Source: an uncultured Pelagibacteraceae bacterium (GTDB lineage: Bacteria > Pseudomonadota > Alphaproteobacteria > Pelagibacterales > Pelagibacteraceae). Taken from it: 63,680 nt of DNA. Shown here in pieces: positions 1,300-59,862 of the stretch. The DNA lies in assembly GCA_902595745.1 (NCBI GenBank), contig CACJRE010000002.1, forward strand, positions 1 to 63,680, given 5' to 3'. Made by a program: the position numbers and the translations under genes. The notes beneath the pieces were generated by a model that did no database searches, was not told where the DNA came from, and saw only the letters and a list, made by a program, of their open reading frames with translations. Position 1 is the first letter of the stretch. Every line of letters starts with the position of its first letter.

Positions 1300-2361
1300 T
1301 TAAAAACAAACTATGTGATCAATATTAATCGGTCGTTTAATTCCAAACTTTTCGTCAGCTTCATGTTGATGTTCGTGATGGGAATGAACAAAAACTGGTA
1401 TTAATAAATCGCTATTAGTTTTTAATGTATAAATAAAGTTTGTTCCTCTAAATTTTCGATCTACAACTTCTAGCTTTAGATTGCTTTTATCATCATGCTC
1501 AAGGTCTTCTGGCTGGAGTAACAATTGTACATTTGAACCTTTTGGATAATGCTTAATAAAATTACCTTTAATTGTTCCAAGATCCTTGTTTTCTAATGAA
1601 TTTTCTCCTGTTACCTTTGCTGGAATTAAAATTCCACGATTTAAAAAATTTACTACTTCGACTGAGTTTGGAAAATGATAAACATTATAAGGATCATCAA
1701 ACTGCTTAATTTGACCATCTAATATAATTGCACATTTAGTGCCAAGATAAAAAGCTTCGTAAGAGTCGTGAGTAACAATTATTGTTGTAATTTTTAATTT
1801 ACTTAATATTTTTTTTAATCTTACTTGAATTTCTTCTTTAAAACTTTGATCTACATTAGATAGTGGTTCATCTAAAAGTAAAAGGTCAGGCTGTGTTAAC
1901 AGTGATCTTGCAAGTGATGCCCTTTGCGCCTCCCCTGCGCTAATTTCATGAGGATATTTTGGTAATATTTTTTCTATATCGAGAAAATCTATAATCTCTT
2001 TAAAACTGAGCTTTTTTCTTCTTTTTCCTTTATTTCTCTCCGCACCTAATAAAATATTTTTTTCAACTGTATAATGAGGGAACAAACTGTTGTCCTGAAA
2101 AGCTAAAGATATGTTTCTATTTTCAGGTTCTACATTTTGATCTTTAGATGATAGTAACTTGCTATTAAGTTTAATTGAACCTTTGTCAATTTTTTCTAAA
2201 CCAGCTATAGTTCTAAGTATGGTAGTTTTACCAATACCAGAAGGACCTAATATACATAAAGTATCCCCTTCGTTTTCAATTGCAAAAGATGCGTTCTTAA
2301 CTTTTATCTTTCCACCTATAGTGAAATCAACATTTTTAACCTCTAAATAACTATCACTCAT
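1300..2361 (-). CDS. fbpC: Fe(3+) ABC transporter ATP-binding protein (FbpC-like)
   Basis: Walker A GPSGIGKTT, signature SAGEAQRASLARSL, Walker B LLLLDEP; adjacent to FbpB-like permease. Confidence 0.85.
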   Translation of the reverse strand: MSDSYLEVKNVDFTIGGKIKVKNASFAIENEGDTLCILGPSGIGKTTILRTIAGLEKIDKGSIKLNSKLLSSKDQNVEPENRNISLAFQDNSLFPHYTVEKNILLGAERNKGKRRKKLSFKEIIDFLDIEKILPKYPHEISAGEAQRASLARSLLTQPDLLLLDEPLSNVDQSFKEEIQVRLKKILSKLKITTIIVTHDSYEAFYLGTKCAIILDGQIKQFDDPYNVYHFPNSVEVVNFLNRGILIPAKVTGENSLENKDLGTIKGNFIKHYPKGSNVQLLLQPEDLEHDDKSNLKLEVVDRKFRGTNFIYTLKTNSDLLIPVFVHSHHEHQHEADEKFGIKRPINIDHIVCF

Positions 2362-3979
2362 TTTCCCTCAGTATATATTTAGAAGTAAGCATTATAAATA
2401 AAGTTGCAATCAAAATTAAAAACAATGAGGGAACAGCTGCGGCTTCCAATAAGTCTTCTGAAGCAGATATATAGGCTGTAGTTGCAAATGTTTCAAAATT
2501 AAAAGGTCTTAAAATCAAAGTGATTGGTAGCTCTCTTATTATCTCTAAAGAAATCAGTATTCCAACAAACAAAAGAGAATTTCTTAAAAAAGGGATATGA
2601 ATATTCATAAAAGTTTTCTTTTTCGAATAACCAAGCAAATATGAACTTTCATCAACAGAAATATTTATTTTTTCATAACCAGATTTTATTCCATTAAAAG
2701 CTAAAGAATAGAATCTTATAAAATAAACTAGGACAAGCCCTAAAATAGAACCAATAAACATCTTTTTAATAGATAAAAAACCAAGTGCTTTTACAACATT
2801 GTCATCAAACCAAGCAATAAAAGTTATAAATGCCACTGCTAAAATTACTCCTGGAATTGCATAACCAGAAATAGATAAAGTAGATAAAGTATTTAAAGTT
2901 TTGTTTTTAGAAACTCTATTTCCATAATTAGAAATTAAAGAAAAAATTATTAAAACTAAGCTTGATAATAAAACCAAGTACAGGGTATTTAATGTTAAAG
3001 TTACTACTGGAATATCAAAAAGATTCTCTGGAAATTTTAAGGTCCAATAAAGCATTTGACTTAAAGGAAATAAAAAACTTAGAAAAAAAACTAAAAAACA
3101 AATTGAGAATGCAAAAAATGCTTTAGTTCCTGATAGTTGGATTTTTTCTTTTTGTTTAAATCCACCTTTGCTATTGGCATGATATCTTGCCTTCTTTCTG
3201 GATAAATTTTCTAAAATAAATATTGCAAAAATAAATAAAAGAAGAAAAAAAGATATCCTGTTTGAGAAAGCTAAATCATCAAATGTAATCCATGAATTAT
3301 AAATACCTGTTGTTAAAGTATTTATAGAAAAAAAATCAACTGCCCCAAATTCAGCTAATGTTTCCATTGCAACGAGAGAGAGACCAGCAACTATGGCGGG
3401 TCTTGCAGCAGGTAAGATCAACAAATAAAAGGATTTTGCTTTTGAAAATCCTAGATTTCTGCCTAAATCAATTAAATTTTGAGATTGATACAAAAATGAT
3501 GCTCTTGAAAGAATATAAACATATGCAAATAAAGAAAAAGATAACGAAAGTACTGCCCCTAATAAACCGTCAAATTTTGGAATACTTTGGTTATAATTCG
3601 CCTCTCCAAATAGATTTTTTAATATCGAATACAAAGTTCCATAATTTTCAAAGAATGCTGTCAATGAATATGCGTAAATATAAGGAGGTACAGCAAAGGA
3701 TAATATAAGAGCCCATTTGAAAAAATTACTTAATGGAAATTTATAAAAAGAAACTAAATAAGCTGAACAAGTTCCAATTAAAAAAGTCAAAAACAAAACG
3801 CTAATTAACAAAATTAGCGAATTAAAAATGTATTCTAATAAAAAAGTGTCTTTTAAAATTTGATAATAATTTGAGGTATCCTCAAAAAAACTAGTAAATA
3901 CAGTAACGATTGGTATAGCAACAAAAATTGATACCAATAAAGAACTTAAAAACCAAAAATTAATTTTTTTTAAATACAT
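2354..3979 (-). CDS. fbpB: Fe(3+) ABC transporter permease (FbpB-like)
   Basis: 541-aa, two permease halves with EAA-type loops; overlaps ATPase gene. Confidence 0.85.
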   Translation of the reverse strand: MYLKKINFWFLSSLLVSIFVAIPIVTVFTSFFEDTSNYYQILKDTFLLEYIFNSLILLISVLFLTFLIGTCSAYLVSFYKFPLSNFFKWALILSFAVPPYIYAYSLTAFFENYGTLYSILKNLFGEANYNQSIPKFDGLLGAVLSLSFSLFAYVYILSRASFLYQSQNLIDLGRNLGFSKAKSFYLLILPAARPAIVAGLSLVAMETLAEFGAVDFFSINTLTTGIYNSWITFDDLAFSNRISFFLLLFIFAIFILENLSRKKARYHANSKGGFKQKEKIQLSGTKAFFAFSICFLVFFLSFLFPLSQMLYWTLKFPENLFDIPVVTLTLNTLYLVLLSSLVLIIFSLISNYGNRVSKNKTLNTLSTLSISGYAIPGVILAVAFITFIAWFDDNVVKALGFLSIKKMFIGSILGLVLVYFIRFYSLAFNGIKSGYEKINISVDESSYLLGYSKKKTFMNIHIPFLRNSLLFVGILISLEIIRELPITLILRPFNFETFATTAYISASEDLLEAAAVPSLFLILIATLFIMLTSKYILRENE

Positions 3980-4042
3980 TTTACCCTTTTATACAGTGAA
4001 CATAATCAATAGTAGGGTAAATAACTATTGAATTATGTTCAC
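3980..4042 (-). promoter_or_regulatory. Candidate intercistronic RNA element: stem-loop with loop complementary to fbpB RBS region
   Basis: Arms GTGAACATAATCAATAGT (3996-4013) and ACTATTGAATTATGTTCAC (4024-4042), one bulged nt; loop AGGGTAAATA (4014-4023, + strand) contains AGGGTAAA, the exact reverse complement of TTTACCCT (3980-3987) immediately upstream of the fbpB start. Confidence 0.5.
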
Positions 4043-4052
4043 GTTTTGAAAA

Positions 4053-4247
4053 TTAACTTTTTAAATCAAAAACATTAATGACATGATCAATATCATCTTT
4101 TTTAATCTCAGATAATTTTCTATTATTTATTCTTTTTTTAATTTTTTCACATTGTGACAAGCATGGCTCACAAGTTATCTGACCCGCTAGAGAACCACTA
4201 TTGCTCGGAGAAATGTCTAAATTAAAATTAAATAAATTCTTTGTCAC
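4053..4247 (-). CDS. Small Cys-rich hypothetical protein in the iron transporter operon
   Basis: 64-aa ORF with CEPCLSQC motif, 7 nt after the fbpA stop; apparent GTG start. Confidence 0.5.
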   Translation of the reverse strand: MTKNLFNFNLDISPSNSGSLAGQITCEPCLSQCEKIKKRINNRKLSEIKKDDIDHVINVFDLKS

Positions 4248-4254
4248 TTGATCA

Positions 4255-5283
4255 TTACTTCCATCCAGCAGCTGTCATTACTTCTAATGCAGCAGCTTGA
4301 TTTTTTCCATAGCTTGAAACTTTAGTTGTTAGATCTTGTTTAAAATCTAATCCTAAATTATTCACTACCAATGGATTTGGAGATACTCCAGCTATCATCG
4401 GAAACTCAAAAGTATTATTTGTAAAATGTTCCTGAGCTTCTGGTGATAATAAAAAGTCAACAAGTGCAATTGCATTAGCTTTATTAGGTGCTGCTTTTAC
4501 TAGAGCAGCACAACTAATATTCATGTGTGTTCCTCTGTCATTTTGATTAGGAAAAAATACCTTAACTTTTTTAGCGGCTGCTTGTTGTTCTGCTCCTTTA
4601 TTACCAGATAGCATAAGTGCCAAGTAATAAGTGTTTGCTACGGCAATATCAGCTTCTCCAGCTGCAACTGCCATGATTTGAGCTCTATCGTTTCCTTTTG
4701 GTGTTCGTGCCATGTTAGAAACAACTCCTTTAGACCATTCAGCAGCAGCTTTCTTACCATTATTCTCAATTAATGAGGCTACTAGTGACTTATTATAAAT
4801 GTTACTTGATTTTCTAATTACTAGTCTATCTTTCCATTTTGGATCAGCTAGACCTTCATATGTAAGACCTGATAATTCAGCACCACTTACTCTTTCTGGT
4901 GAATAATAGATTACTCTTGCTCTTTTAGCTACTCCTACCCAGTGTGTAGTTCTAAAATTTTTTGGAACAGAAGATTTAATTGTTGAAGATATCAAACCAC
5001 TTTGAGTCATTCCTATAGCTTTGAAAGCTCCACATCTTCCGGCATCAGCAGTAATATAAAGATCCGCAGAAGAATCTGTACCTTCTTCGATCATTCTTTT
5101 TTCTAGTGCACTAGCCTTTCCATTAATAAGGTTTACTTTAATTCCAGTTTTGTCGGTAAATTTGCTATAAAGCTCTTTATCTGCTTTGTAATGCCTTGCA
5201 TTGAAGATATTTACCTCATTTGCGATCGCAAAAGACGTGGCTATTAAAGAGACAAATAAACTTACTATTGTTACTTTTTTCAT
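4255..5283 (-). CDS. fbpA: Fe(3+) ABC transporter substrate-binding protein (FbpA/SfuA-like)
   Basis: Signal peptide; 'VNIFNARHYKADKELYSKFTDKTGIKVNLI', 'ANTYYLALMLSG', typical of the FbpA/FutA family. Confidence 0.9.
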   Translation of the reverse strand: MKKVTIVSLFVSLIATSFAIANEVNIFNARHYKADKELYSKFTDKTGIKVNLINGKASALEKRMIEEGTDSSADLYITADAGRCGAFKAIGMTQSGLISSTIKSSVPKNFRTTHWVGVAKRARVIYYSPERVSGAELSGLTYEGLADPKWKDRLVIRKSSNIYNKSLVASLIENNGKKAAAEWSKGVVSNMARTPKGNDRAQIMAVAAGEADIAVANTYYLALMLSGNKGAEQQAAAKKVKVFFPNQNDRGTHMNISCAALVKAAPNKANAIALVDFLLSPEAQEHFTNNTFEFPMIAGVSPNPLVVNNLGLDFKQDLTTKVSSYGKNQAAALEVMTAAGWK

Positions 5284-58917: not shown

Positions 58918-59862
58918 ATGTGTGGGATAGCTGGACTAATACATAGAGGCAAATCTTCAAATGTAGGAAGTGAACTACAAGGTATGCTTCAAGCTTTAAA
59001 ACATAGAGGGGAAGACTCAACAGGTTACGCTCTATATGGCGACACTGATGGTAAAAATTTTATCATGCGTTTTAAAGTAGGAGAAAACGTTGGTGAAGGA
59101 AGTTCGTCAGTTATGGAAGATGTTTCTGTATACGATGAAAGAAAAAAAATAGTAGATCAGTATTTAGCTGAAATGGGAGCAAAAGTTCTTAAAGAAGAAA
59201 GAACTCTACCCTACTCTCTAAGATATGAAATTTCTTATGATAAAAAAGATCTATTAGATTTCTCTCAAAAAATTGAAAGTATCCCAGGTGTTGAAATCCT
59301 TTCAATGGGTAAATCATTAGAAGTAATCAAAGATCTTGGTAATGCTAAAGCAGTATGTGACCGATATTCTTTAGATAAACTTGTTGGTACTCATGCAATT
59401 GGACACGCAAGAATGGCAACAGAGTCTGGTGTTGATATCAAATCAGCTCACCCTTTTTGGGGATATCCTTTTAGTGATGTCTCAGTTGTTCATAACGGTC
59501 AACTTACAAATTATTGGAACAATAGAAGAGCGTTAGAGAACAAAGGGATGAGATTTATGTCTGAATGTGATTCAGAGTTAATCGCAGTATATATTGCTCA
59601 AAAAATGAGAGAAGGAGCAAGTCTTGAAGAAGGGATGAAAGACTCTCTATTAGGACTTGATGGAGTATTTACTTATTTTGTTGCAACAAAAGACTCGTTA
59701 GGGATGGCAAAAGATACCATGGCTGCAAAACCTTTGGTTCTTTATGAGTCAGATGATTTAGTTGCAATGGGTTCAGAAGAAATAGCGATCAGATCAGTTC
59801 TTCCACAAGAAATTGATACATATGATCCATTTGATGGAGAGGTAAAAGTATGGCAAATCTAA
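58918..59862 (+). CDS. glxB: Class II glutamine amidotransferase (GlxB / MgsA-like)
   Basis: N-terminal MCGIAGLIHRGKSSNVG, 'GTHAIGHARMATESGVDIKSAHPFWGYPFSDVSVVHNGQLTNYW'. Confidence 0.92.
   Translation: MCGIAGLIHRGKSSNVGSELQGMLQALKHRGEDSTGYALYGDTDGKNFIMRFKVGENVGEGSSSVMEDVSVYDERKKIVDQYLAEMGAKVLKEERTLPYSLRYEISYDKKDLLDFSQKIESIPGVEILSMGKSLEVIKDLGNAKAVCDRYSLDKLVGTHAIGHARMATESGVDIKSAHPFWGYPFSDVSVVHNGQLTNYWNNRRALENKGMRFMSECDSELIAVYIAQKMREGASLEEGMKDSLLGLDGVFTYFVATKDSLGMAKDTMAAKPLVLYESDDLVAMGSEEIAIRSVLPQEIDTYDPFDGEVKVWQI

Follow-up and report, generated by a model that had tools for sequence, protein, structure and literature searches.

SAR11 cells, the most abundant bacteria of the ocean, have, to our knowledge, few known regulators; how one operon can give rise to much binding protein but little permease is a general question. 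The question is raised here by an iron-transport operon of Pelagibacter (SAR11) on the minus strand of the window (the whole stretch of 63,680 nt that was analysed), in which fbpA, a 64-aa ORF, fbpB and an ABC ATPase gene are found. A cis-acting H-type pseudoknot over the fbpB start, present in part of Pelagibacter, probably acts as a translational brake that lowers FbpB relative to FbpA, a reading to which we assign a probability of roughly 0.7. If it is true, this conserved structure at the start of the permease gene would answer the ratio question for the main SAR11 iron importer.

The operon and its intercistronic hairpin

The fbp and sfu names follow the layout of the operon and the literature on sfuC of Ca. 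P. ubique (PMC2864753). Because the NCBIfam scores lie below their cut-offs, iron is the presumed substrate; Fur-box-like palindromes are located 5′ of fbpA. The small Cys-rich ORF, which is conserved between fbpA and fbpB across much of Pelagibacter, has no match in Pfam or NCBIfam and, since several pseudoknot lineages lack it, is dispensable for the pseudoknot.

Between this ORF and fbpB, the first-pass annotation had described a stem-loop with a loop complementary to the ribosome-binding region of fbpB, and re-reading of the minus-strand sequence reproduced stem, loop and complement letter for letter (Table 1). Within the apical loop, UUUACCCU is the exact 8-nt complement of AGGGUAAA, which lies directly 5′ of the fbpB AUG. 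As the two arms of stem S1 differ in length by one nucleotide (19 and 18 nt), the stem comprises 18 bp and one bulged U, and the 141-nt strand folds better than its shuffles (z = −2.9). An intrinsic terminator was rejected, the hairpin being followed by UGUAUAAAAGGG with no U-tract directly after it; U-tracts are present after the hairpin in some relatives of other classes.

Table 1. Features of the fbpA–fbpB region in the window.
Feature	Position	Strand	Length	Remarks
fbpB (sfuB-like), ABC permease	2354..3979	−	541 aa	BPD_transp_1
fbpB AUG	3979	−		
S2 3′ strand, AGGGUAAA	3987–3980	−		Shine–Dalgarno/spacer of fbpB
Linker L3, UGUAUAAA	3995–3988	−	8 nt	A/U-rich
S1 3′ arm, ACUAUUGAUUAUGUUCAC	4013–3996	−	18 nt	
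S2 5′ strand, UUUACCCU	4021–4014	−		Part of the apical loop
Apical loop, UAUUUACCCU	4023–4014	−		
S1 5′ arm, GUGAACAUAAUUCAAUAGU	4042–4024	−	19 nt	Sequence read directly; covariation
Small ORF, CEPCLSQC (CxPCxxxC) motif	4053..4247	−	64 aa	Ends 10 nt before S1
fbpA (sfuC-like), periplasmic binding protein	4255..5283	−		SBP_bac_6
fbpA-leader motif, UAGGGUAA	5297..5304	−		Complementary to the hairpin loop; possible second partner

About 0.7% of random 10-mers from the window reach at least 8 complementary nucleotides against the fbpB region, and 2% of shuffled loops reach an 8-nt match. A match arising by chance at a rate of ~0.7–2% is only suggestive in a single sequence, and the decision therefore had to come from relatives. 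Among 59 genes of the window, two carry an 8-nt match to the loop, one of them being fbpB; another gene start, at position 58918 of the plus strand (AGAAGGGGUAAAUUAUAUG), is likewise complementary to the loop over 8 nt, probably by chance.

In a scan for loop-to-start pseudoknots, approximately 75 of 257 fbpB loci scored at least 15.5, compared with 60 matches of any score, mostly lower, at 3430 random positions of the window, with the fbpB feature itself among the top matches. A covariance model of the element found one strong match per genome, located in front of fbpB, which rules out a REP or other mobile repeat. The Rfam search returned no family; DicF alone appeared, below threshold (23.9 against a gathering score of 48) and beside the hairpin, and was judged to be a chance hit.

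Distribution of the element among relatives

The fbpB upstream regions of 177 genomes of the genus and of 80 named GTDB records were gathered and fall into three classes. Class (a) combines a hairpin carrying an ACCC-type loop with GGGUAA at the fbpB start. In class (b) the hairpin loops are UCUCC, GNRA-like, GGGG or U-rich, and the start usually lies in its own small hairpin, UUAUAAGGCGGAUUAUAA. Class (c) displays a −10-like box near the fbpB start, often behind a peroxiredoxin-like gene, and no loop:RBS pairing. On the FbpB tree, class (a) appears in three places that are apart from one another. In the class with a UCUCC loop and a GGCGGA RBS, loop:RBS pairing is unsupported (median shuffle p of 0.51). 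The pseudoknot is confined to some Pelagibacter lineages, and most of the genus shows no pairing between hairpin loop and start.

Loop and start motif occur together. Across 220 distinct upstream regions, an ACCC loop and a GGGUAA or GGAUAA start coincide in 64, neither is present in 147, the loop stands alone in six and the start alone in three, so that 64 of the 73 regions with either motif have both (Fisher p ~1e-44, a value that ignores kinship between the sequences). Four loop-only sequences (G230, G362, G133 and L229) are of one type, in which the hairpin stops a few bases short of the AUG. Among the start-only sequences, L232 has a loop altered at one base (ACCGUU), giving a helix with one mismatch, and L249 has lost both hairpin and small ORF; the loop:start helix of G106 likewise contains one mismatch. 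On a tree of 50 rows, six independent pairs differ in the loop, and the start motif changes likewise in ~4.4 of them on average and never in the opposite direction; with only four or five informative pairs, none discordant, the tree-corrected sign test cannot reach 0.05 (p ~0.125).

Covariation and spacing of the loop–start helix

The first-pass annotation had proposed an H-type pseudoknot at the fbpB start and had named conservation or compensatory change of the loop:RBS pairing in close relatives as its test. Compensatory and wobble-preserving changes were both found, and the proposal is supported by covariation of loop and RBS, by a rewritten pair in one isolate, by a spacing that is kept when the AUG shifts and by covariation of the stem, in which nine of ten consensus pairs display two-sided changes. 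Complementarity, covariation and spacing, like S1 itself, emerge from this comparison of sequences.

In 26 distinct haplotypes, 92.3% of the cells of the 8-bp loop:start helix are paired, compared with 35–62% for helices slid by one to three columns, and the helix scores 0.134 for covariation, shuffles that ignore relatedness reaching 0.055 ± 0.016 (none of 500 as high). The pair at columns 3–20 is U-A in 12 cases, A-U in seven, C-G in two and U-G in one, and two one-base substitutions in the loop, A>G in L235 and C>U in G217, both convert a Watson–Crick pair into a wobble. In L228 (isolate AG-343-D15) an unrelated loop, UAUUCCUCUAA, pairs with its own RBS, UUAGAGGAGUA, over 11 bp including one G-U. 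In L223 all 11 nt of the loop, UACUUACCCUU, are exactly complementary to AAGGGUAAGUA, a stretch that reaches into the start codon. As the core UUACCC/GGGUAA hardly varies, the covariation rests mainly on one pair and on L228, and the evidence that it provides for the helix is good, not overwhelming. Swapping of loops among 13 lineages gave p = 0.35 when contiguous length was scored and p = 0.0115 when duplex energy was.

Of the 26 haplotypes, 24 have the partner GGG at a distance of 31–35 nt from the loop CCC. Distances of 40 nt occur in G034 (in windows shared with 33-nt rows) and in G099, both of which have a second, nearer G-run, and there are one or two strict exceptions, according to the scoring of G034. 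In G100, G334, G295 and G132 and in the records of their type (L216–L218, L220, L222 and L224) the partner comprises codons 2–4 (AUGGGUAAUAAA), 33–34 nt from the loop. The spacing is thus held relative to the loop and not to the AUG, which fits what pairing in cis requires.

Two simpler accounts of the locus can be weighed against these results. A pure chance match in AT-rich DNA, which at ~1–2% for a single 8-nt match might be entertained for one genome, is refuted by conservation across separate lineages (association, covariation and L228) and is scarcely credible. Alternatively, the hairpin might be only a 3′ stabilizer or processing barrier of the fbpA mRNA, of the malE–malF REP kind, to which the loop:RBS match would be incidental; such a role needs S1 alone, which covaries, and would suit the many relatives whose hairpins persist with loops that do not pair with the start. 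It leaves the loop–start association, the covariation, the fixed spacing and L228 unexplained, and we regard it as rather improbable.

Geometry, predicted energies and proposed mechanism

In the proposed pseudoknot, S1 (18 bp here) would form first and the loop would then pair, through an S2 of 7–11 bp, with the Shine–Dalgarno/spacer of fbpB or, in some species, with codons 2–4, while L3 would follow the shallow groove of S1. By an A-form estimate, 18 bp need ~8–9 nt along this groove, leaving the L3 of the window taut. In relatives L3 measures 7–12 nt, which is just long enough for S1, and where a 20-bp S1 is combined with a 7-nt L3 one or two pairs at the bottom end must open. On this estimate the lengths allow both stems of an H-type fold.

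Pairing of the RBS with the loop is predicted to be worth −10.0 kcal/mol in the window, against −5.1 kcal/mol for pairing with the anti-SD; the corresponding values in three other lineages are −15.3 and −4.0, −13.7 and −8.7, and −11.9 and −4.0 kcal/mol, so that the predicted advantage of the loop exceeds 4 kcal/mol in all four lineages computed. Judged from these energies and from the alignment, S2 would cover the Shine–Dalgarno sequence or start codon of fbpB and outcompete the anti-SD, and its pairing would prevent the 30S subunit from docking there. The result would be a standing brake, lowering the FbpB permease relative to the FbpA that is translated from the shared iron-induced transcript. 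Maintenance of the pairing in relatives despite changed letters suggests that the brake is built in, to give more iron-catching protein than channel, and a fixed translational brake appears to be the likeliest role. It is from the compared sequences that we infer formation of the pseudoknot in the cell, repression of fbpB and a purpose in setting the subunit ratio rather than in responding to a signal.

Under iron limitation, Ca. P. ubique increases its sfuC, sfuB and sfuA mRNAs 16-fold, tenfold and fivefold, respectively, and its SfuC protein 27-fold. No SfuB peptides were ever detected, an absence that the authors blame in part on membrane insolubility (PMC2864753). These data agree in direction with a brake on FbpB, in strains that may not carry the class (a) element.

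The pseudoknot could instead be a switch that responds to a ligand, metal or protein, either riboswitch-like or opened by CspE/CspL under iron stress, given that the operon is iron-responsive, that the levels of CspE/CspL vary with iron in Ca. P. ubique (PMC2864753) and that the group has small pseudoknot switches, SAM-V among them (PMC6061858). In alignment A4, however, L1 and L3 vary freely, so that neither the linker nor the other unpaired bases are conserved; with no Rfam match either, no binding pocket is apparent and a riboswitch is not claimed. Conditional translation, which the first-pass annotation had also raised, finds no conserved unpaired core to sustain it, and a switch of this kind seems unlikely.

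A possible second partner in the fbpA leader

The loop is also complementary to AGGGUAAAG, a motif that many class (a) genomes carry in their fbpA leader. A loop acting in trans or at long range, as a seed of the 3′UTR-derived small RNA type that pairs with both the fbpA leader and the fbpB start, would account for the presence of this motif in 52 of 71 pseudoknot genomes and, among 78 others, in 12, of which several are pseudoknots that had been missed. It would also suit G012 (L172), in which leader (UCAGGCUA) and loop (UAGCCUGA) have both changed and match each other and the fbpB partner has disappeared. No further Pelagibacter genomes came from a search around G012. Against this, the leader match is absent from whole lineages (G017/G026/G034, G250/G108, G153, G227, G279 and L223), all of which keep the fbpB match, and the fixed loop-to-start spacing points to pairing in cis. 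A general rule of pairing between leader and intercistronic region is not convincing, matches of 8.1 nt within a genome being, overall, hardly longer than the 7.7 nt of swapped controls. A trans-acting seed is accordingly held to be quite improbable.

The leader match may represent a second partner or may be due to common ancestry and chance. That one loop is shared by two starts, pairing either with the fbpB RBS in cis or with AGGGUAAAG of the fbpA leader, and so balances translation of both proteins through a single RNA element is an unlikely possibility. In L004, L007, L016 and L017, the small ORF has a conserved UUCCGCAU/C, with a CCG codon amid AT-rich DNA, that is complementary over 8 nt to AUGCGGAA/GUGCGGAA of the fbpA leader.

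Comparison with known systems

Intercistronic hairpins between binding-protein and permease genes are known from the REP type of malE–malF, which the fbpB element resembles in position and in the likely outcome of more binding protein than permease. Unlike these, it is proposed to act through a loop:RBS helix and not through mRNA decay only, and it is present as a single copy with no repeat family. Small RNAs of alphaproteobacteria with anti-SD loops constitute the cuckoo/CcsR type; they share with the fbpB element a C-rich hairpin loop complementary to the Shine–Dalgarno sequence, whereas the latter targets its neighbouring start in cis and at a constant distance.

As in the SAM-II, SAM-V and preQ1-II riboswitches and in the autoregulation of S15 and of the alpha operon, the loop would pair with a downstream Shine–Dalgarno sequence and block initiation. 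The fbpB element differs from those RBS-sequestering pseudoknots in that its S1 is not short (18–20 bp), in that no conserved pocket for a ligand or protein was found at it and in its intercistronic position within a transporter operon. The rpsB leader pseudoknot and the SAM-V motif of Ca. P. ubique were likewise found by comparison and in the same group of organisms, but precede rpsB and methionine genes (PMC2704228). In a search through the text of Meyer 2009, sfuC turned up only in the table of intergenic regions, for the region next to SAR11_1239, with no motif given (PMC2704228).

Other arrangements of the fbpB start

In most of the genus (for example in L018, L004, L010 and L016) the Shine–Dalgarno sequence of fbpB, GGCGGA, lies inside a small palindromic hairpin, UUAUAA-GGCGGA-UUAUAA. 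Starts of this type come after a hairpin whose conserved loop is UCUCCU or GNRA-like and which in some cases precedes a U-tract.

Small ORF and hairpin have been deleted naturally in L053 (G411), L245, L249 and L250, placing fbpB directly behind fbpA, and in three of the four the RBS has changed from GGGUAA to GGGCAA; these strains offer a ready comparison for the effect of the element. Some fbpB genes have been relocated elsewhere. In L003, L009, L058 and L063, fbpB follows a peroxiredoxin-like gene and TATATTATAA-like −10 boxes stand a few bases before the start codon, which suggests that fbpB is transcribed from a promoter of its own, with a very short leader, in these genomes.
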